A stretch of DNA of 10,996 nucleotides from an uncultured Sphingorhabdus sp. (GTDB lineage Bacteria; Pseudomonadota; Alphaproteobacteria; Sphingomonadales; Sphingomonadaceae). The DNA is taken from contig CALMYW010000200.1 of NCBI GenBank assembly GCA_937873665.1, positions 1-10,996 on the forward strand, read 5' to 3'. The notes below the pieces were generated by a model. It was not told the origin of the DNA and made no database searches. It saw nothing but the letters and a program-made list of their open reading frames with translations. Position numbers and translations under genes: made by a program. Positions 424-10,996 of the stretch are shown piece after piece; positions within the stretch are counted from its first letter, which is position 1; the number at the start of each line of letters is the position of its first letter.

Positions 424-1527
424 ATGCGCTGGAATTGGCAGCTTCCCGACTGGCCTGATTTTCGCTTCGATGCGGATCGCATCCGCGCGTCCGAAGAGCA
501 GTTCCTGAAAGGCTCCGGCGTTGTCATTGGCGCTCTCCATCATCTCGACACCGATGAGCGCGATAGGCTGACCATCGAACTCATCTCACAGGAGGTTGTC
601 GATAGTTCTGCCATCGAGGGTGAAATTCTCGACCGCGCGAGCGTCCAGTCGTCGCTCGCACGGCATCTGGGCTTTGCCGCCGATCAGCGCCGCGCAAGCG
701 CGGCGGAAGCCGGAGCCGCCGAGCTCATGGCCGATGTTTATCGCAATCATGCTGCGCCGATTGATGACCAGACCCTGTTCGCGTGGCACGCGATGCTGAT
801 GAACGGGCGCCGCGATATTGCCGATGTCGGGCGCTACCGGACGCATGAAGACGCCATGCAGATCGTCTCGGGCGCGCTTCACGCGCCGCGTGTGCATTTC
901 GAGGCACCGCCGTCCGCTACCGTCCCGATGGAAATGGCCCGGTTCATCGCGTGGTTCAACGACAGCGCGCCATCATCACCGAATCCGTTACCCGCGATCA
1001 CCCGCGCCGCGATCTCGCACCTGTGGTTCGAGAGCATCCATCCGTTCGAGGATGGCAATGGTCGGATCGGACGCGCGATTGCCGAAAAGGCATTGGCCCA
1101 AAACCTTGCGGCCCCGACGCTGACGGCACTTGCTGAGACGATCAATCGCCACCGCAAAGCCTATTACGCCGCGCTTCAGCTCGGCAGCCAGAACAACGAG
1201 ATCGACGCCTGGCTGACATGGTTTGCCGATATTGTCATCGAGGCGCAGGCGCGGACGATCACCCGTATCCGCTTCCTGATCGACAAGACGCGGCTGCTTG
1301 ATCGCTTGCGCGGGCAAATCAACGAACGGCAGGAAAAGGCCCTGCTTCGCTTGTTTCGCGAAGGGCCGGACGGCTTTGCGGGTGGGTTGAGTGCCGGAAA
1401 TTACCGGACGATCACAGATGCCAGCCTAGCCACCGCGACCCGTGATTTGAACGACCTGATCGAAAAGGGTGCGCTGATCCGTATTGGCGAGCGGCGCTAT
1501 GCGCGCTACTTTCTTACGAGCAGCTAG
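424..1527 (+). CDS. fic: Fic-domain protein (DUF4172 type), probable AMPylating enzyme
   Basis: Fic enzymes usually transfer AMP from ATP to hydroxyl side chains of target proteins in the cytoplasm. The catalytic loop HPFEDGNGRIGR (residues 206-217) is complete, including the catalytic His206. The flap that docks target peptides lies near residues 136-164. The N-terminal 60 residues, rich in Trp and starting MRWNWQLPDWPDF, match the DUF4172 leader found in this class. SSAIEG at 61-66 fits the (S/T)xxxE(G/N) inhibitory helix, so this should be a class II Fic that is shut off in cis and needs no separate antitoxin. Residues about 300-365 look like a winged helix. The 367-residue length is normal and the frame is intact. 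A GAAAGG ribosome-binding sequence lies at 405-410, rather far from the ATG. The gene converges on mcrC. The target protein cannot be read from sequence; roles in toxicity or phage defence are open. Confidence 0.93.
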   Translation: MRWNWQLPDWPDFRFDADRIRASEEQFLKGSGVVIGALHHLDTDERDRLTIELISQEVVDSSAIEGEILDRASVQSSLARHLGFAADQRRASAAEAGAAELMADVYRNHAAPIDDQTLFAWHAMLMNGRRDIADVGRYRTHEDAMQIVSGALHAPRVHFEAPPSATVPMEMARFIAWFNDSAPSSPNPLPAITRAAISHLWFESIHPFEDGNGRIGRAIAEKALAQNLAAPTLTALAETINRHRKAYYAALQLGSQNNEIDAWLTWFADIVIEAQARTITRIRFLIDKTRLLDRLRGQINERQEKALLRLFREGPDGFAGGLSAGNYRTITDASLATATRDLNDLIEKGALIRIGERRYARYFLTSS

Positions 1528-1809: not shown

Positions 1810-3135
1810 TCACGCCACGGCCACCGAACCCTCCTTGACGGGTGACAGCAAGCCTTTCAGTTGCAGCACGACCGCCGCCTCGCCCGGTAAGAGATCAACG
1901 CTAGCTATCCGCAGCCGTTCATCGCCCTCCATCATGCCGTAACCCGCCTCCAAAGCCTCAGCGCCAAGGCCAGCATGATGTGGATAGAGCAACATCACGT
2001 CCCGGCACTGGTATAGCCGGGCGTAAACCATCATCTGATAGACATCGGACTGCGACACGCCGCGCTTCTTGTCTTCAGGATTTCGGCCGATCTGCTTCCA
2101 TTTGGTGTCGATCACCATCACGACTTGACCATCGCGCCTAATGAGAATGTCGGGTGCCGTCTGGAAGCGTTGCCTTCCTCCTTCGCCCTCTTCCATCAAG
2201 CAGTAGCGCAATCCGCCCTGCGCGTGGACCGTCAAATCGCTGCCCCGCAGCGCCCGCCGGGCAAGTGCGGCGATATAGGCCTCAAACAAGTCGTTCATTG
2301 CGAACAGCAGAGTTGTTCCCTGACTCGCTTTGGCATCATGGTTGGTACGCTGCCATTCGCGCTTCAAGAACAACTTTGCCAGCCCGTAGAGCGTCTCCCA
2401 ACGGCGATTTGTCCGGTCGATGCGCACTTGGGTCCAAGGCAAAGCGTTGACCGGAACGTCGCTCACCTCCGCCAACAGAAACCGCAGTTCATCAAGACGT
2501 CGCTGCGTTTCCAACGCGCGGGCATGGCGGCGCAACATCAGGACGCAAGCCTTCATAACGCGCAGCAACGGCGTATCCGGCATCAGGGAATCGAACCGGC
2601 AGGCAAGTCGGTCTGGTCGCACCGCATGGTGGGTGAACTGGCGAATGACATCGAGCCGTCCGCGCAGCGCGGGCAGATCTTCCTCCTGCGCCATGTAGGC
2701 GCGGGGAAGGCCGCGTCGTGCCTCGGCTAGCAGGCGGTCTGCAAACAACCGGATTAGGATATCGAGCAATGTCTCCCTTTGACGCGCCATCTCTAAGGCC
2801 TGCCCATCTCCAAGTTTTAGGCCGAGCGCGACATCGAGCATGGAGATAAGGCGCGTGCGGATTGTCTCATCGCCTTCATCGGCAGCAGAATCGATCTTAG
2901 GCAATATCTCAAGACTACAACCGGGCGCAGCAATTACGCCCACAACTTGCTGCGCCCTTATCTCGCTGTAACGGTCTACAAGGATATTCGTCCCAGAGGG
3001 GTTGGCTAACGGGTGTGACCGCGCAGCCAGTAACAGGGCATTCGCCTGACTACGGGTGAAGGTCTTCTCCGAACCTAGACCAGTGCCGTTGTGGACGCCG
3101 ATGCGACCCCACTCGTGGACGGTTAGATACGTCAT
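1810..3135 (-). CDS. mcrC: McrC-family nuclease subunit of an McrBC-type restriction system
   Basis: McrC joins McrB rings, stimulates their NTP hydrolysis and provides the PD-(D/E)XK nuclease that cuts DNA. In this 441-residue protein the N-terminal beta-rich part carries the family block LEILPK (75-80). A middle helical part has LRGRLDVIRQF (157-167) and the F/D-containing block near 181-193. The C-terminal nuclease shows PDILI at 328-332, DTKWK at 343-347 and DVYQMMVYA at 364-372, so the catalytic Asp and Lys are intact. The open frame extends 22 codons upstream to 3201, but those residues have no family likeness. I chose the ATG at 3135 because the protein then begins MTYLTVHEWG, typical of McrC, and because it overlaps the stop of the preceding gene as ATGA. 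The last gene of the operon; it converges with fic. Confidence 0.93.
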   Translation of the reverse strand: MTYLTVHEWGRIGVHNGTGLGSEKTFTRSQANALLLAARSHPLANPSGTNILVDRYSEIRAQQVVGVIAAPGCSLEILPKIDSAADEGDETIRTRLISMLDVALGLKLGDGQALEMARQRETLLDILIRLFADRLLAEARRGLPRAYMAQEEDLPALRGRLDVIRQFTHHAVRPDRLACRFDSLMPDTPLLRVMKACVLMLRRHARALETQRRLDELRFLLAEVSDVPVNALPWTQVRIDRTNRRWETLYGLAKLFLKREWQRTNHDAKASQGTTLLFAMNDLFEAYIAALARRALRGSDLTVHAQGGLRYCLMEEGEGGRQRFQTAPDILIRRDGQVVMVIDTKWKQIGRNPEDKKRGVSQSDVYQMMVYARLYQCRDVMLLYPHHAGLGAEALEAGYGMMEGDERLRIASVDLLPGEAAVVLQLKGLLSPVKEGSVAVA

Positions 3136-3878
3136 GGATGGAACCGGGCAATCACGCGCTCGGCATGATCGGCCATGTATTGCGGAAAAGTGTCCAGCCA
3201 TTCACGCCAAGAACAGGCCGTGAAGCGGACTGTCGAACCGGCAACCCCTTCCGCAAAACGGGTGATCTCGGATCGATGATCGGCAAACGCCTTCGCTGAA
3301 ATGGCGCGGCCTTCCGTTGGTTCGGCATAGAGGTAAAGCAGGATCGGCGACTTTCCCCGTCGCTTCGCCTCGGTCACTAGGCCATAGCCGTGCTTCACCA
3401 GTTGCGTGGCATCGAGATGGCGAAAGACCGCGGGCTCCGCCAGCAGCCGGTCGCGCATCGCGCACCACGGCTCCATGCCCTTATCCCATTTATGCGATGA
3501 GTATTTGGGCGACAGCTTTGCTAGCTTGAAATCACGGAACGGCTCGAAACGCTTCGATTCAACTCCGATCAGGTGTGTCGCCGTTTCGACGGCGGCATCG
3601 AGCCAGGGATGGCGGCCACCGGCCCAAGGGAAACGCATCTGTCGCTCGACATCAACGGACAATGCGGGCCAATCGAGATCATGCAGGCACGGGAATGGCG
3701 GCAGAGTGTCGGAATGTTCGAGAAACAGGCCAAAGCCATTGACGGCCAAGGCCGAGCTGCTTTCGGGGCTGCCAAACTTTCCCGATGCAAGCTCCTGCCC
3801 TGCTGCCGCGCCGAGTGCAGCAGCAACCCGGTCAACCGGAACACCGGGAAGGAGGTGATTGGCCAGTTCCTCGATCAC
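3132..3878 (-). CDS. PD-(D/E)XK nuclease-like protein between mcrB and mcrC
   Basis: This 248-residue protein is not part of a classical McrBC pair. It contains HPWLDAAVET (90-99) followed by LIGVESKRFEPF (103-114). Asp94 with Glu107-Ser-Lys109, the second motif in a hydrophobic strand, fits the D...ExK signature of PD-(D/E)XK nucleases. A later strand KSPILLYLYAEP (176-187) suits the same fold. It is reminiscent of PGN_0703-like putative restriction endonucleases, from memory and not confirmed. The start is GTG at 3878: its bases overlap the mcrB stop as GTGA, and its own stop overlaps the mcrC start as ATGA. This tight coupling suggests balanced production with McrB and McrC, hence a subunit or accessory nuclease of the same complex. 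It could also be a catalytically dead specificity subunit. Confidence is high for the gene, moderate for the nuclease fold. Confidence 0.75.
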   Translation of the reverse strand: MIEELANHLLPGVPVDRVAAALGAAAGQELASGKFGSPESSSALAVNGFGLFLEHSDTLPPFPCLHDLDWPALSVDVERQMRFPWAGGRHPWLDAAVETATHLIGVESKRFEPFRDFKLAKLSPKYSSHKWDKGMEPWCAMRDRLLAEPAVFRHLDATQLVKHGYGLVTEAKRRGKSPILLYLYAEPTEGRAISAKAFADHRSEITRFAEGVAGSTVRFTACSWREWLDTFPQYMADHAERVIARFHP

Positions 3879-6397
3879 TCGTCAGGCTCCTCCGGTGCGT
3901 TCACCACTTTGCCGTTCAACCGTTCAAAAGCGTCAGACTTGAACGGAGCAAGCACCGACCAGCTTGAAACTCGGTCCCCTTCGATACCCGGCGGCGGATC
4001 GAGCTTGTCCTCCCGGACAAACCCGTCGCCAAGCACCGCATGAATGCGGCTCCAGTCCTCGAAGAAATACTCCTGCAACAACGGGATTACTTTGTTCCGC
4101 ATGGCCGCATTTACGTCCGCAGAAGTGTCACAGCCGATGAAAAAGGCGTGGCCGATGCGATGCTCACGGTCGATCAGATATTCGATTCGCTGGTTGATGG
4201 TGGTGAGTGCGCGGACAAGATCGATCGCTGTCCGTTTGCTGGCGTCCGCCAGCAAGCCGGGGTCCGGGGCCATTTCCCTGAAATTGAAACGCCGCCGCAA
4301 TGCCGTGTCCAGCAGCGCGATGGACCTGTCTGCCGTATTCATCGTGCCGACGACGTGTAGGTTCGACGGAACCCCAAAATCCCGCTTCTTCGAATACGGC
4401 AGTGTCAACGTCAGCTCATTGGGCATTCCCAGTCGCTTGTCAGGTTCAATCAGCGTGATGAGTTCGCCGAAAACCTTGGAAATATTGGCGCGGTTGATCT
4501 CATCGATAATGAGTACGAATTGGTCGGGTGTGCTGTCACTCACTGGCGCAGCGTCGCCGCTGTTGTCACTGTCACCAGCAATTAACCGACCAAGCGCGGG
4601 GAGATTCATGCGCTTCGATGGCAGCGAGTACAGCGTGCGCATCGTGAAGTTACCATCGACAATCGTGTCGAGCGGCAATGGTTCGTCCAAGGTCAAAAGC
4701 CAGCGAACATCGCGGCGATGCGCGTAGTATCCCTCAGCCGAAGGTTCAAACCGGTAGCCACCCGTAACTTCGGCAATCGCCCGAAACGCAGTATTGCCAT
4801 AGGGCACGATGACAATGTCACCGATCTGCATTTCGCAGCGGAACGGCCAGGTTTGTGTCCAATTGCTGGGAGTAGTGTCGTCGGGCTTCTGCGCGAGCCA
4901 TTCGGCCTTGATCGCGTCAAAGGTCGAGAACCGTTCATCGCTCCAATCGATGGAACCGCCCCAGCCGAGGGTTATGTAGTTGTTGGCAATTGCGGAGTCA
5001 TAGACGTCATCCTCGGTGCCGATGGCACCTTGCCCCATTTTCCAGAAGCGGCGACCGGAAAAATCGTAGCCTTCTGCGCTAGCAGAAGGTGTCGTTCGCG
5101 TGCGGGCCTGATCGGCCAAGGCGCAGATTTCGCGAAAAATACCGGCGCGAGCTTCAAGCCGGAAACCCGCAGAACTGCCGTCACTCTCACCCGTTTCGGG
5201 TCGCAATCCTTCGACAAAGGTTTCATAATCGTAGTTCTGGTGAAATGTGACAAAGCCGATCCGCTTTTCTGCGACCAGCTCATTATAGCGCGCCATCAGC
5301 GCGGCGCGGCCACCCATCGTTTCCGGATAATCCGCAGTGCCATCGCAAAGCGTCACTGCCTCCAGCGCCGTGCGATAGGTTTTGCCGGTTCCCGGAGGAC
5401 CATAAAGGATAAGATTTGTTGGAGAATTCATTGGGCGAGCTTTCGAGTGCGAACTACCGGTAAGGGCGAAGCGATAGGTCATATTACCGCCACGCCCGCT
5501 ATCCGGTCCTGATATGATTTCCGGCTTGGGCAGTCCGGTCATGTCCCGCAGCTTCTTGCCCTCAATCGCCTGACATACGTTTGGCAACTGATTGGAAAGC
5601 CCAAGCTCTTTGTGAACATCGCCTGCCCGAATGGTAACGGTCGCATCGTTGCGCCGTTTTGCTGGTTCGATATGATTGGCGATCAGGTGTTTGCGGATGC
5701 GATCAGCCTGCACCTCATCGCCACCTGGCCGCCGCCGACTTTCAATCTCATAGCCCAATCGAACAAATTCCGAGTGGATTGGGCCGCCTTCCGCATCGCC
5801 GAAGGTGTCGCGCTGACCCTTCACCGTAATGTCTGGGTTGCCGGGAATTGAGCTATAGGCAACGAGGAAGATTGCCTTGGCCGGATAGCGGGCCTCTTCG
5901 CCGGGGCGGAAAACAACATAATCGAAATTGGTCGCAAATCCATATTTCTGCATGAAATCAGTGGCGCTCTGGTCATATGCCTTCATCGCCGCTTCAACGG
6001 ATTCTCGGCTCAGTTCGAGTGCGTCTTCGCCATCGGCTGGCTCATTGACAGCACCGTAGTTCGGGTCGCGGCCTTCGAGAAAATAGCCATATTGCTTCAG
6101 GGCAGCGATCATGTTTGAAAGCTGTCCACTCGGTTCGTTTGCCTGTGGAACCACCGATCTTATGACTGAAAGGTCGGCACTTTCATCACCTTTCAGTTCG
6201 GACAATCGAGCGATCAGCGATTCCCAAACGCCCTCCTCAAAGACCTTTTCCAGCGTGGCTTGCTCGAAGCCCAACCCCTTCAAGCCACGCTCTGCACGCA
6301 AACTGCGGCGAACGCGATTGTCCTTGGCCTTCTTCGTGAGCGGGTTTCCCTTCCAGAGCCGCTTGCCCAACCATTCTCGAAATTCAGGCTCCCGCAT
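3875..6397 (-). CDS. mcrB: McrB-type AAA+ motor with an EVE-like insertion and extra N-terminal modules
   Basis: McrB forms a ring that uses GTP to translocate DNA and activates McrC. Here 840 residues, against about 460 in E. coli McrB. Core motifs: Walker A GPPGTGKT (333-340), Walker B LIIDEINR (629-636), the McrB signature MNTADRS (686-692), and RRRF (701-704) as likely arginine finger. Between Walker A and Walker B lies about 140 extra residues (447-590) beginning GRRFWKMGQG and containing GDIVIVPYGN and RRDVRWLL; this resembles an EVE/PUA-fold reader of modified bases. Residues 135-220 (YDQSATDFMQKYGF, then YPAKAI and a closing LGYEI) resemble the N-terminal head of ScoMcrA. Residues 226-312 (TIRAGDVHKELGL) look winged-helix-like. 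Residues 1-65 are helical and basic. A strong GGAAGGA ribosome-binding site (6403-6409) is five bases before the ATG. No frameshift is seen. The AAA+ call is firm; the accessory domain names are inferred. Confidence 0.93.
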   Translation of the reverse strand: MREPEFREWLGKRLWKGNPLTKKAKDNRVRRSLRAERGLKGLGFEQATLEKVFEEGVWESLIARLSELKGDESADLSVIRSVVPQANEPSGQLSNMIAALKQYGYFLEGRDPNYGAVNEPADGEDALELSRESVEAAMKAYDQSATDFMQKYGFATNFDYVVFRPGEEARYPAKAIFLVAYSSIPGNPDITVKGQRDTFGDAEGGPIHSEFVRLGYEIESRRRPGGDEVQADRIRKHLIANHIEPAKRRNDATVTIRAGDVHKELGLSNQLPNVCQAIEGKKLRDMTGLPKPEIISGPDSGRGGNMTYRFALTGSSHSKARPMNSPTNLILYGPPGTGKTYRTALEAVTLCDGTADYPETMGGRAALMARYNELVAEKRIGFVTFHQNYDYETFVEGLRPETGESDGSSAGFRLEARAGIFREICALADQARTRTTPSASAEGYDFSGRRFWKMGQGAIGTEDDVYDSAIANNYITLGWGGSIDWSDERFSTFDAIKAEWLAQKPDDTTPSNWTQTWPFRCEMQIGDIVIVPYGNTAFRAIAEVTGGYRFEPSAEGYYAHRRDVRWLLTLDEPLPLDTIVDGNFTMRTLYSLPSKRMNLPALGRLIAGDSDNSGDAAPVSDSTPDQFVLIIDEINRANISKVFGELITLIEPDKRLGMPNELTLTLPYSKKRDFGVPSNLHVVGTMNTADRSIALLDTALRRRFNFREMAPDPGLLADASKRTAIDLVRALTTINQRIEYLIDREHRIGHAFFIGCDTSADVNAAMRNKVIPLLQEYFFEDWSRIHAVLGDGFVREDKLDPPPGIEGDRVSSWSVLAPFKSDAFERLNGKVVNAPEEPDE

Positions 6398-6402
6398 TCT
6401 TG

Positions 6403-6409
6403 TCCTTCC
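6403..6409 (-). promoter_or_regulatory. Ribosome-binding site of mcrB
   Basis: On the minus strand GGAAGGA lies five bases before the ATG at 6397, immediately after the stop codon of the methyltransferase (6415-6413). It fixes the mcrB start and shows that mcrB is read from the same transcript rather than from a separate promoter in the 15-base gap. Confidence 0.7.
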
Positions 6410-6412
6410 CCA

Positions 6413-9400
6413 TCACTCTTGGACGTCAATTTCGCCGGGCTTTCCGTCCACCCACGGCACGGCGCAATCACGCGCCTTGGCGTGGGCAGCGTCGAGGGCT
6501 GGCCCCATGCACAGGATTTCGGTGATACGGCGCGCGGTTTTGGCGAAGTGGAGCGCCTCTTCGCCCGTCAGCGCGCGACCGAGAACGTCGGCTTCGCGGT
6601 AAGAAAGCCACTTCTTGAGCACCTGATATCCGCCGAGCGTGTAGTCCCAGACCTTAGCGGGCACACCCTCCCATCTGGCATCGGCGTTGATGTAGACGTC
6701 TACTGCCTGCTCGCCAATTAGGCTGAATAGTGTTTCGAGGTCGAGATCATGGCGCGCTGCCAGTTGGGACAAAGCATTGCGTTCGACATCGGTCCACACC
6801 CGGACATCGGTTTTCCCGCCACCGGGCATGACAAGCCGAGTCCCATTATCGCGACGCTGGATATAGCCCCATCCGGCGGTCACGTTGAATGATTTGCCGC
6901 GAGGCGTTGCTATCGCTGAAAGACCTGCAAGCAGCGATCCTTGGGTTACACCCTCAACTTCGATTTCAGCATCGAGCAATGCCGAAAGCGCAGCACCCAA
7001 TTCGGCAGACGAGGTGAATACCTCAAGCTCACCGGGGAACGGAATGCGCGGCCAATCAATTCTGAGTGCGTCAATATAGCTGACTTCGTATGTTGGCGCG
7101 TTCAGGGTAGCGAGAATGTGGTCGAAGAGCTGGCTGCTTGAGATGCCTCGATCTGCCAGCGCCTTCTTGAGTGATTTCGCAACATTCGGTTCGAGGTTCT
7201 GGCTGTCTTGGCGGACTGTGGCCGGAAAGATCGCGACGTTGCTCTCGACTAGATGATGATCGCCAAGCACGGTGACGGATTGCGGCTTGTAAAAGACGCC
7301 CATCCTGTTGCGTTCGCCAGCCGTGAGGAAACGATTTACAAAGCCTGTGTTGCCGAAAAACTCCGGACGCTTTTCGTCGATTAGCTTCGTGTCGGGATCC
7401 CAATATGCCCATCGCACGTCAAAAGGACGATAAGCATAGCGGACGATTTCGCCGAGCGCATGCTTCCGCCCGATCAGCGATTTTCGGGTCTCTGCCGAGT
7501 CGTAGCGAGACGAGCTGTTCATCAACGCGGGAAAGGCTCTCGTTAAATCCGCATCTGAAACTTTGAGATCAAAATATTGCTCGATGCGCTTTTCCAACGC
7601 ATCGCGATCAACGTCGATGAGGAATTCGTCGCGGCTCGTTTTTACCCCCGCGAAGCTAACCGGCAGTAGCTCCGTCAAGCGTGGCCATTCGAAATAGCCC
7701 GCGCCGACATCGGCGGGCATAAATTGCAGACGCAACGGCAGCGAGGGGGTGAGGTGTTCATAAAGCGTGGTCGGGTCGGCTTCGGCGGACGCCGCCAGTG
7801 TCTCGCGCTTCGCAGTTCCCCACAAATGCCTGAAAGCGATCGTTTCGGCTGGCTTGTGATCCTTCTTGCGCACCAGCGTCGCAATCGCCGTGCCGACTTG
7901 AATGCCTGCCGGATTGGCTGGCGTCGAGAAGATCGACGGGTCCGACAATCCTTCAGGAGTTTTTTTGCCGGTCTTGTATTTGTCCCCGTTCAGGCAGTCG
8001 ATTGCGATGCTGTCGAACGTCTCTAGATAGCGTTCGCGCATACCGGGGCAGCTCAGGCTGTCTAGCCAGCCATAGTTCGAGATGAATGAAATAACGCCTT
8101 CGCCGGTCTTTTCTGCGATGCGCCGTTCGGCCATGCGGAAGAAACGGACATACAGCTCATTCAGGCCCTGTCCTTTTGATGGCGCGACCTTTTTGACCTT
8201 ACGGTATTCATTAGTTAGCGCGCGTTCTTCCGCGTTGTCCGCAATTCCGGCAAAGCCATCATAAGGCGGATTGCCGAGGATAACGAGGATCGGCGTAGAT
8301 TGCTTGACCGCATCGGCGGATGCACGTTCAGCTTCGAGTTCGGGAAAAGGTAGCGGTTTGTTTGTGTGCGGCTCCCATCCGGTTAGCGCGTTGGTCAGGT
8401 AGATCGCCGGTCGCGTGTCTGCGGCAAGCGGCGCATCCATGTTTGCCAGCGTCATCCCCGCCTGCATATGCGCGACGACAAACGGCGCAGGCATAATCTC
8501 GAACCCGAAGACGCGCGTTTGCGCCGCATCTCGCAGCCGGTCGGCCAGCGCATCGCCAAGCCCGTGATGTTCGAGGTTGGCACGGATGCGACGCAGGACG
8601 GCATTGATGAAGCCGCCTGTCCCGCAGCACGGATCAAGCACATAGACTCGCCCGTCGGCCAGGCCGTCGGCTATACCCAGTTCGTCTTTTAGCGCACGGT
8701 CAACACGCGCGACCATGTAATCGACGATTTCGGCGGGCGTGTACCAGACGCCGAATTGCTTGCGCAGTTTGGGGTCGAACGCTTCTAGAAAAGGCTCGTA
8801 GAAATACTGGACTGCTTCGCCTTGATCGAAGCGTTTCAGAAATTCCGCCGCGTCAATGCGGTTGAGCGTGTTGCCGGTCCAGTCAAGCACCTCAACAAGA
8901 TCGAGCTGCTTGATATGTTGTGGCGAAGTCAGTTGCTGGAACAGCGTCTGGATGAAGGGAACATGCAAGCTCCAGCCTGCCGAGCGCCAGTCGAAGCGCG
9001 GCGGGTTGCGCGGCGTTTCGCGCGCCCAGATCACCCATGCGGAGAACAGTCCGTAGAACAGAGTTTGGACGAGCGTGGAGCGGAAGAAATGATCACCCTT
9101 TTCCTCATCGAAGGTGATGCCGAGCGCATCTTCTAGTGCAGAGCGAACTGTTTTGAGTGCTGGAAGATCGCCCGCCGCATCGACCCTCGCGAGTGCGTCA
9201 CGGGCGTATGACGCGAGGAACCACGCTACATCCTTGGGCTGCACCAGCGCGACATTCTGTGTCAGCGCACGGCGGAGATATTCAACGAAGGCGAGGCCGA
9301 TGGTTTTGGCCGACTTTCCCGGCGTCTGGACGAGCGACCAGAAATCAGCGGCGGTGTAGGCAAGCGCGAATGCTTCGAGCCGGGTCGCTGTGCCGTTGAC

Positions 9401-9796
9401 ATCAGGCCCGACGAGCTGAAACGCACGCATGTTTGTGACCAGCACGAGGCCGTAAGCATCATAGTATTTGGTCAGTTGGGCGGGTGTCGATTTGAACAGG
9501 CTGTCGTCGGCAACCGCCTTAACTTCGACCACGCCGCGTTCTGGCAGTTGCCCTTTGCGCGGCTCGCCCTTCTGGATTTGATTCGTTGCGAACAGACCGA
9601 AATCTGGGCTGCCCGCGCCAGCATTGGAAAGCTGTGACAGCGCCATAACCTTGGGAGAGAGCGACGCGCCGACCCGCTCGAAAAGCGTATGGAGCGCAGG
9701 ATAATAGGCGGTTTCCGGCGTTCCAGCGCCGAGTGCGCGAACCCGGCGAACGGCCTCGAAAAATTCCTCAGCGATTTGAATTGGTTCGTAAGCCAC
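6413..9796 (-). CDS. Type ISP-like restriction-modification enzyme without helicase (nuclease plus N6-adenine methyltransferase)
   Basis: This 1127-residue protein should methylate adenine in a specific DNA site and may cut unmodified DNA. The N-terminal part carries SPDFG (63-67) and VVEVKAV (89-95), a PD...ExK nuclease signature. QFGVWYTPAEIVDYMV (347-362) is the usual lead-in to the methyltransferase. Motif I is DPCCGTGGF (388-396) and motif IV is NPPY (509-512), the N6-adenine type. The long C-terminal part, ending with GGYQVLKKWLSYRE (1055-1068), matches the type ISP specificity domain. Classical type ISP enzymes such as LlaBIII also have a helicase between nuclease and methyltransferase and are about 1,500-1,600 residues; none is present here, giving a type IIG-like architecture. 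The start is GTG at 9796 with AAGGGG five bases upstream. First gene of the operon, followed 15 bases later by mcrB. It may work alone or protect self DNA for the McrBC part. Confidence 0.9.
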   Translation of the reverse strand: MAYEPIQIAEEFFEAVRRVRALGAGTPETAYYPALHTLFERVGASLSPKVMALSQLSNAGAGSPDFGLFATNQIQKGEPRKGQLPERGVVEVKAVADDSLFKSTPAQLTKYYDAYGLVLVTNMRAFQLVGPDVNGTATRLEAFALAYTAADFWSLVQTPGKSAKTIGLAFVEYLRRALTQNVALVQPKDVAWFLASYARDALARVDAAGDLPALKTVRSALEDALGITFDEEKGDHFFRSTLVQTLFYGLFSAWVIWARETPRNPPRFDWRSAGWSLHVPFIQTLFQQLTSPQHIKQLDLVEVLDWTGNTLNRIDAAEFLKRFDQGEAVQYFYEPFLEAFDPKLRKQFGVWYTPAEIVDYMVARVDRALKDELGIADGLADGRVYVLDPCCGTGGFINAVLRRIRANLEHHGLGDALADRLRDAAQTRVFGFEIMPAPFVVAHMQAGMTLANMDAPLAADTRPAIYLTNALTGWEPHTNKPLPFPELEAERASADAVKQSTPILVILGNPPYDGFAGIADNAEERALTNEYRKVKKVAPSKGQGLNELYVRFFRMAERRIAEKTGEGVISFISNYGWLDSLSCPGMRERYLETFDSIAIDCLNGDKYKTGKKTPEGLSDPSIFSTPANPAGIQVGTAIATLVRKKDHKPAETIAFRHLWGTAKRETLAASAEADPTTLYEHLTPSLPLRLQFMPADVGAGYFEWPRLTELLPVSFAGVKTSRDEFLIDVDRDALEKRIEQYFDLKVSDADLTRAFPALMNSSSRYDSAETRKSLIGRKHALGEIVRYAYRPFDVRWAYWDPDTKLIDEKRPEFFGNTGFVNRFLTAGERNRMGVFYKPQSVTVLGDHHLVESNVAIFPATVRQDSQNLEPNVAKSLKKALADRGISSSQLFDHILATLNAPTYEVSYIDALRIDWPRIPFPGELEVFTSSAELGAALSALLDAEIEVEGVTQGSLLAGLSAIATPRGKSFNVTAGWGYIQRRDNGTRLVMPGGGKTDVRVWTDVERNALSQLAARHDLDLETLFSLIGEQAVDVYINADARWEGVPAKVWDYTLGGYQVLKKWLSYREADVLGRALTGEEALHFAKTARRITEILCMGPALDAAHAKARDCAVPWVDGKPGEIDVQE

Positions 9797-9866: not shown

Positions 9867-10276
9867 TTGCATGGCTGCCCTACGGGCGACCCGCTCTATT
9901 CGCTACGCGAACCAAGCCTGTAGTCTTGGCCCATCCGGGTGACGATCGGGAGCGGGGGCAAATGAGCGGGAAGTTTTAGGGTCGCACTCTTTCCCGCGCT
10001 GCGCGCTCCTTGAGGGTGCGGAGTCTTTTGGCTGACCCGCTGGCGCTCTTGCCTCTCTCCTGGCCGGATGGGCGCTGGCGCACAGTTGCGCGCGCACACC
10101 ATCCGACTGGCGTCGCACCGGCAAGGGTGCCGTTCCTGTTCGGCCGCTGCGCGGCGAACTTTCTTCAATGACATTCGACTGATTGTGGACGGCGCGGACG
10201 CGCCGGCGTGTGTGTGGCCGTCCCCGAAGAGGGGGATGGGCGGCGCTTCCGGCTAGGCCCGTCGCGCTCAGGCGCA

Positions 10277-10303
10277 ACCCGGCAGGCCGGGTCTTTCACT
10301 TTG
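10277..10303 (+). terminator. Possible weak intrinsic terminator or attenuator ahead of ardC
   Basis: A perfect 7-base stem (10277-10283 with 10286-10292) closed by a two-base AG is followed by CTTTCACTTT. The T content is modest and interrupted, so termination would be weak. It sits 115 bases before ardC on the same strand and could act as an attenuator or merely be chance in GC-rich DNA. Confidence 0.22.
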
Positions 10304-10396
10304 TTACAGCCTTGCAGGTGCGCCTGATCGCGCCGGGCCTCTTGGTCGCTTTTTGCCGCCCACCCCCCTCTCCGGGGGCGTGTGGTTTTAGAGGCG

Positions 10397-10402
10397 AGGA
10401 GG
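10397..10402 (+). promoter_or_regulatory. Strong ribosome-binding site of ardC
   Basis: A perfect AGGAGG lies five bases before the ATG at 10408. A GTG immediately before that ATG (10405-10407) is in frame but only two bases from the Shine-Dalgarno, so the ATG is preferred. Confidence 0.75.
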
Positions 10403-10407
10403 CTGTG

Positions 10408-10996
10408 ATGGCGGTTGGCAATCGGAAACGGGGTTTTGGCGGCAAGGGTAAGGCGGCGCTGCGCGCCGCGCGCGAGGGCGATACGCCCCGCGCTTCGCTC
10501 TATGACGAGGTAACGGCGAAGATCATCGCCCAGCTTGAGGCTGGCCTGTTCCCTTGGGCGCAGCCGTGGAACTCGGCGGCAGCCGTGCCGGGATTGCCGC
10601 GCAATGCGGTTTCGGGGCGTCCCTATTCGGGCGTCAATGTGCTGATCCTTTGGGGTGCGGTCATTGAAGGCTGCTACCCGTCGCAGGACTGGTTGACCTT
10701 TCGGCAGGCGCTGGCCGCTGGCGGATGCGTCCGCAAGGGCGAGCGCGGCCATACAATCTTTTACGCCGACCGCTTCACCCCCGAAGATGGGCGCGAGCAG
10801 GGCGAGGGCGCGGAGGGCGAACCCCGCGCGATTCCGTTTCTCAAACGCTTCGTCGTGTTCAATGCCGCGCAATGCGACGGACTGCCCGAGCGGCTGACAG
10901 CCGACCCGACACCGTTGCCTGAGCGCGAACAGCATGAGGGCGCGGAGGCGCTGATTGCCGCGACGGGTGCGGATTTCCGCATCGGCGGCGCGCGGG
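10408..10996 (+). CDS. ardC: ArdC-type antirestriction protein, N-terminal part (runs off the window)
   Basis: ArdC proteins enter recipients during conjugation, bind single-stranded DNA and protect incoming DNA from restriction. The 196 visible residues, of about 300 expected, cover the N-terminal ssDNA-binding domain (DUF1738, PF08401 type). Family blocks appear in order: a basic leader, YDEVTAKIIAQLEAG (32-46), PWAQPWN (49-55), GRPYSGVNVLIL (70-81), WLTFRQA (94-100), VRKGERGHTIFY (107-118) and FVVFNAAQCDGL (147-158). The expected C-terminal zincin-like metallopeptidase domain lies beyond the window. The coding sequence is markedly richer in GC than the neighbouring restriction operon, suggesting a different origin. 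Such genes are usual cargo of plasmids and integrative conjugative elements, so this supports mobile DNA at this edge. It is divergent from the restriction operon. Confidence 0.9.
   Translation, partial: MAVGNRKRGFGGKGKAALRAAREGDTPRASLYDEVTAKIIAQLEAGLFPWAQPWNSAAAVPGLPRNAVSGRPYSGVNVLILWGAVIEGCYPSQDWLTFRQALAAGGCVRKGERGHTIFYADRFTPEDGREQGEGAEGEPRAIPFLKRFVVFNAAQCDGLPERLTADPTPLPEREQHEGAEALIAATGADFRIGGAR

Follow-up and report, generated by a model that had tools for sequence, protein, structure and literature searches.

A type IIG-like restriction-methylation gene ahead of mcrBC in a Sphingorhabdus contig: a probable operon of exchangeable parts with an optional third nuclease

Introduction

McrBC-like nucleases with cognate methyltransferases are known from LlaJI and PcaI (PMC1459862, PMC8989522), and a census of McrBC describes branches that stand with type I restriction-modification (R-M) genes in potential single operons and others that stand with methyltransferases (PMC11090510). 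Insertions in the GTPase domain, which are likely specificity domains, also occur in that census (PMC11090510), and the type IV system TgvAB together with a type I operon has been suggested to cover both modified and non-modified phages (PMC11411939). Here we describe a stretch of 10,996 nucleotides (the window) from an uncultured Sphingorhabdus sp. (contig CALMYW010000200.1, assembly GCA_937873665.1), in which a single-chain restriction-methylation enzyme (gene A) is encoded directly ahead of an McrB (gene B), a nuclease-like protein (gene C) and an McrC (gene D). An earlier note on this DNA held that McrBC normally has no partner methyltransferase, which is overstated, as LlaJI and PcaI (PMC1459862, PMC8989522) and the census (PMC11090510) contradict it. 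A limited check of the literature, by title or abstract opening, found no system composed of a type IIG enzyme, McrB, a nuclease and McrC.

The comparisons below support an R-M and McrBC operon of apparently exchangeable parts over one four-gene functional unit. They draw on the gene order, motifs and overlaps in the window, on the differing R-M partners and McrB readers observed on near-identical back halves of the operon, and on the erosion of gene C in relatives.

Gene organisation

Four genes, all on the minus strand and each with its motifs intact, occupy positions 1810..9796 of the window (aa, amino acids):

6413..9796, minus strand: gene A, 1127 aa, GTG start; single-chain restriction-methylation enzyme, type IIG-like
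6398..6412, minus strand: gap of 15 bases between the stop of gene A and the ATG of gene B
3875..6397, minus strand: gene B, McrB-like AAA+ GTPase of the NxxD type, 840 aa
3132..3878, minus strand: gene C, PF22558-like PD-(D/E)xK nuclease, 248 aa, GTG start
1810..3135, minus strand: gene D, McrC, 441 aa

The junction of B and C is a GTGA overlap and that of C and D an ATGA overlap. The open reading frame (ORF) coordinates and the junction sequence thus agree with the earlier note on four co-strand genes with one short gap and two overlaps, and its further description of tight packing, a multidomain McrB, an additional nuclease-like gene and an R-M enzyme placed ahead is supported. For gene D the longest ORF runs from 3201; the ATG at 3135 was chosen, in agreement with the starts in relatives. 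Overlaps of four bases are recurrent, NTGA being found at the B/C junction in all six gene C-bearing relatives checked and at the C/D junction in five of the six. The exception is locus L003 (loci are cited by our own L numbers), where two additional ORFs (134 and 242 aa; L003 13461-14736) separate gene C from mcrC.

Gene B is built of the following parts:

6062..6397, minus strand: front module of McrB, residues 1-112, for which the window copy gave no Pfam match
5732..6004, minus strand: McrB residues 132-222, whose family profile matches residues 12-93 of ScoMcrA (5zmm_A; E 3.8e-9)
5444..5725, minus strand: small conserved module of unknown fold, residues 225-318
5378..5401, minus strand: Walker A GPPGTGKT, residues 333-340
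4613..5056, minus strand: module inserted between Walker A and B, a putative reader, residues 448-595
4499..4516, minus strand: Walker B VLIIDE, residues 628-633
4328..4339, minus strand: NTAD (NxxD) GTPase signature, residues 687-690

Apparent exchange of partners and readers

A tree of McrC was built from 34 rows, omitting near copies (L006, L009, L023-L025) and rows with fewer than 380 matched residues. The window belongs to a group of 12 rows with support of 99/97, among which are four kinds of R-M partner as well as members with no recognised partner. L001 and L014 are sisters in this tree (100/99), yet carry different R-M sets; the two are 96.5% identical in McrC, 90% in the C-terminal part of McrB, 41% in the insert and 21% in the front 112 residues. 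Moreover, the insert is 95-96% identical among the window, L001 and L003, which stand beside three kinds of R-M genes, and this argues that the insert does not read the site of one partner. The McrB middle modules of L001 and L003 are 75% and 83% identical. L014 and L015 have the same R-M type but differing readers (insert 36% identical). That the readers do not simply track the partner argues against a cognate design of the LlaJI kind.

Partners in the front slot were surveyed in relatives of mcrB found by exact peptide patterns, of which the best 80 of 190 were used; 72 have at least 2 kb upstream, and the other eight were excluded from upstream counts. Near copies are present among these rows (L022-L025; L052-L054 with L061). 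A methyltransferase was found within 9 kb upstream of mcrB and co-oriented with it in 25 of the 72, opposed in two (L007, L042) and downstream in one (L040); the reference proteins for this labelling were taken from the loci themselves, so unlike methyltransferases would have been missed. Type I partners were recognised by Pfam as HsdM, HsdS and HsdR in L003 and L014 and as HsdM and HsdR in L027, whose HsdS gave no Pfam match at E 0.001 (the methyltransferase count is independent of HsdS). The remaining partners were assigned by similarity, with representatives by Pfam. The spacing to mcrB is 23 bases in L001, 41 in L003 and 24 in L045, and in L052 there is an overlap of four bases.

Several other occupants of the slot were observed. 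A three-gene set lies directly ahead of mcrB in L001 (4814-9977) and L002 (4790-9977); in L001 its products are an N6 methyltransferase that includes an HSDR_N_2 part, a protein resembling HsdS and a third resembling DndB, the last of these slightly below the Pfam cut-off. In L016 (7028-16366) a BsuBI/PstI-type nuclease and a methyltransferase, by Pfam, precede mcrB, and the mcrB-mcrC interval holds two ORFs of 298 and 181 aa, the former without a Pfam match. A SNF2-like helicase is encoded upstream of an hsdM-hsdS-mcrB run in L053 (2231-5581) and similarly in L054 and L061; an HsdR identity for the L053 protein was rejected on this Pfam assignment, with no effect on the methyltransferase count. 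Directly before mcrB in several more distant relatives (L028, L033, L173 and others) is a protein of ~1,140 aa, which we presume to be TM0106-like and of which the L028 copy matches AAA_12 and RNase_H_2; several loci of the wider sample described next have a protein of ~1,110-1,150 aa in this place.

A wider sample of 33 McrC loci from 397 family genomes was drawn regardless of neighbours. Here an upstream methyltransferase is co-oriented in four (L162, L163, L164, L194), three of them already in the first set, and opposed in two (L178, L183); L174 and L189 are truncated upstream, and L175 and L182 each have an upstream ORF that carries an NPP motif but no label and was excluded from the count. 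R-M partnership is common among the close relatives of the window and a minority condition in the wider family.

Recurrence of the gene set

The exact four-gene order was absent from every other record examined. The earlier note had proposed counting this order across genomes, and the count went against its reading of one functional unit: none of the 80 relatives of mcrB, in 72 of which the upstream DNA reaches 2 kb or more, has a close gene A beside it. The only gene A matches of any kind beside mcrB were in L058 and L059, weak ones of 97 residues lying ~3 to 4 kb upstream. No recognised co-oriented R-M gene accompanies the close mcrBC relatives L004, L018, L021 and L049.

Conversely, flanks were fetched for 16 distinct relatives of gene A (44-77% identity), and mcrBC was found near just one of them. 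This set omits L146 (the plasmid of L124) and the 33% rows L128 and L154, and in it L143, L145, L150, L152 and L153 are contig-edge, split or partial. Outside this flank check are L132 (55%, on a short contig), L139 (a second fragment of the L145 genome), most of 42 further genomes and most plasmid rows matching gene A. The exception is plasmid p150 of Sphingomonas sp. AAP5, which carries a type IIG gene (53% identity), McrB (69% and 67%, in two stretches) and McrC (62%), a set without gene C. In a tree of gene A, which has a long-branch warning for L128 and L124, the two mcrBC-linked copies imply that the link changed a minimum of two times, perhaps by gain on both occasions, perhaps by one gain and one loss; in the McrC tree the window and p150 copies lie apart.

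The single obligate unit that the tight packing had suggested is therefore rejected, since mcrB relatives occur without gene A and most of the fetched gene A relatives are solitary (15 of 16 unlinked), and since gene C is eroded in close relatives.

Gene A

Three features were located in gene A:

9518..9607, minus strand: PD-(D/E)xK-like motif PDF...EVK, residues 64-93, a motif pattern only
8255..8803, minus strand: N6 methyltransferase region, residues 332-514, with PCCGTG at 389-394 and NPPY at 509-512
6575..7669, minus strand: C-terminal specificity domain PF18135 by Pfam, residues 710-1074

Type ISP enzymes are single chains that combine nuclease, helicase ATPase, methyltransferase and specificity domains. 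Pfam matches gene A to N6_Mtase (PF02384, 37.7 bits, cut-off 20.4) and Type_ISP_C (PF18135, 145.8 bits), and to no helicase family at E 0.1. 'Type ISP restriction/modification enzyme' is the annotation name of gene A relatives in many records, so the label 'type ISP-like enzyme' given previously holds as a record name; as a class it does not, gene A having no helicase family. The PDB sequence matches are headed by 7lo5, followed by LlaGI (5ffj) and LlaBIII (4xqk), and the best stretch covers the methyltransferase part only. A true type ISP enzyme was ruled out on these two grounds, the missing helicase family and the confinement of the 5ffj and 4xqk matches to the methyltransferase part. The best PADLOC matches are type IIG models, which span residues 13-1074. 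Gene A has the composition of a type IIG enzyme, a single chain that unites a nuclease, a methyltransferase and a specificity part and has no nucleoside triphosphate motor, the nuclease part being assigned from the motif pattern and the PADLOC models. Judged by its sequence, then, it is type IIG-like and not a true type ISP enzyme. Relatives of up to 93% identity were found in metagenomes; when viral contigs were searched by pattern for gene A, seven stretches came up, none of them a relative.

Gene B

McrB is matched by AAA_5 in Pfam and by solved McrB chains, and its NTAD signature is invariant across 22 aligned McrB. The ScoMcrA stretch matched by residues 132-222 is presumably the head domain of that protein, a domain whose function is unknown according to its authors (PMC6224610). 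The inserted module, ~150 residues long, is strongly divergent among close relatives, and residues 466-567 within it match the PADLOC candidate PDC-S02. It matched no Pfam family and gave no convincing PDB sequence match (best row a dUTPase, E 0.011). An EVE/PUA identity, which the style of the motifs had suggested, was set aside because it finds no support in Pfam or in PDB sequence profiles. McrB of L018 and L021 is without the usual 112-residue front module.

Gene C

A conserved motif is present in gene C:

3552..3599, minus strand: motif D94...E107-x-K109, invariant in 23 aligned sequences

The window protein scores 22.3 bits against REase-ARP (PF22558) in Pfam, below the cut-off of 27. 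However, among its 1493 homologues at E <=0.001, the majority of the 120 listed have a precomputed PF22558 assignment, among them a metagenome relative (P0001) of 96% identity. Two homologues among the matches listed are named in their source as a PGN_0703 family putative restriction endonuclease; no paper that names PGN_0703 together with a restriction endonuclease came up in a literature search, and a profile of the gene C family matched no solved structure at E 1.

Gene C lies between mcrB and mcrC in L001, L003, L014, L017, L033, L035 and L173. Elsewhere it is found in decay: L002 retains about 20 residues from the beginning of the protein and 28 from its end, L018 has an N-terminal piece ending in a stop and then a C-terminal piece, and L021 has possibly a C-terminal tail only. 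Both mcrB and mcrC are open in L002, L018 and L021 despite this erosion. No clear piece of gene C was found in L004, L015 or L049. A match was found in 10 of 298 family genomes, four of the ten inside mcrBC, and solitary copies occur among the fetched loci (L126, L127, L155, L157-L159). Eight mcr-embedded copies, that of the window included, were placed in a gene C tree and form two mcr-embedded groups, against a single capture of the gene, though one origin remains compatible with the tree. These distributions identify gene C as an accessory gene that has apparently been both gained and lost. In L158, L159 and L161 the gene C relative (a partial match in L161) adjoins a gene of ~256-267 aa, alike by eye.

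Gene D and the McrBC class

The nuclease motif of gene D was located as follows:

2101..2154, minus strand: McrC nuclease motif PD...DTK, residues 328-345

Pfam matches gene D to McrBC (PF10117) with 246.4 bits. The pair as a whole has the features of McrBC, namely Walker A, Walker B and NxxD in the AAA+ domain of McrB and PF10117 with PD...DxK in McrC; the window proteins do not reach the NCBIfam equivalog cut-offs for McrB and McrC. CoCoNuT systems have NxD as their GTPase signature (PMC11090510), and a CoCoNuT identity was rejected because NTAD of the window McrB is NxxD. McrC relatives are also found on Klebsiella plasmids, in 63 of 175 matching plasmid records (~65% identity among the matches listed).

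Flanking DNA

A Fic protein with DUF4172 flanks the operon (window 424-1527), and the DNA of this region is 87.8% identical to a plasmid of Sphingomonas paeninsulae, which points to Sphingomonadales and to mobile DNA. On the other side lies a gene with an ArdC N-terminal domain (window 10183-10995), divergent from gene A and truncated by the window end; an ArdC-like anti-restriction gene is thus head to head with the restriction operon. No tRNA was found in the window and Rfam gave no match at gathering score, and scans of the window for promoters and terminators were at about chance level (4 against 3.3 expected, and 12 against 9.9 expected).

Interpretation and rival explanations

We consider it moderately probable that the locus is a layered defence, in which two complementary restriction activities share one operon and a third nuclease is optional. 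Gene A would methylate the host at its own sites and cut DNA without that mark. McrB and McrC, by GTP-driven translocation and with exchangeable reader modules, would probably seek out and cleave DNA whose foreign modifications would block gene A. Gene C would be an extra nuclease, inserted with four-base overlaps between mcrB and mcrC, and common transcription of the stacked activities is probable. Recombination may have swapped the front half (the R-M genes and the McrB readers) among lineages, each time joining it to a back half that is conserved and comprises McrC, the C-terminal part of the McrB AAA+ domain and, where it is kept, gene C.

Four observations weigh against this account. The junction of A and B is a 15-base gap without overlap, and a separate promoter inside gene A is possible. 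The reader role of the inserted McrB module remains putative because neither a Pfam family nor a convincing PDB match backs it. The 25 co-oriented loci are not 25 independent events, since the first set holds near copies, and in the wider sample only four of the 33 loci have a co-oriented methyltransferase ahead, with two opposed. The last of these would equally be expected if the genes shared a defence island with no functional coupling between them, gene A having landed by chance just upstream of mcrB. The absence of a close gene A beside all 80 mcrB relatives and of mcrBC in the fetched flanks of 15 of the 16 gene A relatives point the same way. However, chance does not readily account for the preference for one strand among the close relatives (25 co-oriented, two opposed), for the short spacing or overlap between partner and mcrB in many loci (such as L001, L003, L045 and L052), or for a second pairing of a type IIG gene with mcrBC on p150, and we regard coincidental neighbours as a possible but doubtful explanation.

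Closer coupling than a layered defence fares worse. The four genes could form a single R-M system of the LlaJI and PcaI kind, where McrB, C and McrC would cut gene A sites that lack methylation and would be stopped by the methylation that gene A adds. Nucleases of the McrBC kind that work with a cognate methyltransferase are indeed known (PMC1459862, PMC8989522), and the R-M partner and the McrB front modules differ together in the L001/L014 pair. Nevertheless, near-identical inserts and related middle modules stand beside different R-M kinds (window, L001, L003), one R-M type stands beside different readers (L014, L015, though HsdS may differ), some relatives have no recognised co-oriented R-M gene, and gene A has a nuclease motif of its own; such a system is quite improbable. 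We give still less credence to an integrated complex, with recognition and methylation by gene A, McrB as the motor that gene A lacks, and cleavage by C and McrC. Such a complex would fit the lack of a helicase family in gene A and the four-base overlaps that join genes B to D, but its parts are found separately (mcrBC without A, A without mcrBC, C eroded or alone) and the partners are unrelated R-M types, several with an HsdR motor of their own. It is also unlikely, though less so than either of these, that McrB, C and McrC are a universal effector chassis which receives, by recombination, front cassettes of an R-M enzyme together with McrB readers, with gene C as a second nuclease that McrB recruits, raising the killing power at a cost and being lost repeatedly.

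These loci amount to a natural operon series, in which a near-constant McrBC effector is paired with differing R-M enzymes and reader modules. The series makes testable the cooperation of R-M and type IV restriction, the tuning of readers to avoid partner methylation, and the gain and loss of a nuclease.

Comparison with known systems

Gene A resembles type IIG enzymes in its adenine methyltransferase region and in its nearest PDB match, 7lo5. LlaGI and LlaBIII, which carry a helicase, differ from it in being longer and in matching over the methyltransferase part only. Gene C belongs, by most of its listed homologues, to the PF22558 or PGN_0703 family, whose other fetched members are solitary and not mcr-embedded.

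LlaJI and PcaI are alike to the window in that McrB-like and McrC-like proteins are encoded alongside methyltransferases, but in these systems the R-M nuclease is McrBC itself, with unmethylated DNA as its target (PMC1459862, PMC8989522). In the window, by contrast, there is a nuclease motif within gene A, and the readers are common to different partners. The McrBC branch of E. coli K-12 has McrB and McrC co-directional with an R-M set in a potential single operon (PMC11090510); the likeness lies in the gene arrangement and the insertions. The window differs in its type IIG-like R-M enzyme and in the third nuclease gene between mcrB and mcrC. Type I hsd genes beside mcrBC, as in a K-12-type cluster, are absent from the window and present in L003 and L014. 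TgvAB, on VPI-2 of Vibrio cholerae, is related to GmrSD rather than to McrBC, and its R-M part is type I (PMC11411939). However, its type IV genes lie inside a type I R-M operon, and it is, by analogy, a tested parallel for the complementarity of R-M and type IV restriction that would operate here (PMC11411939).

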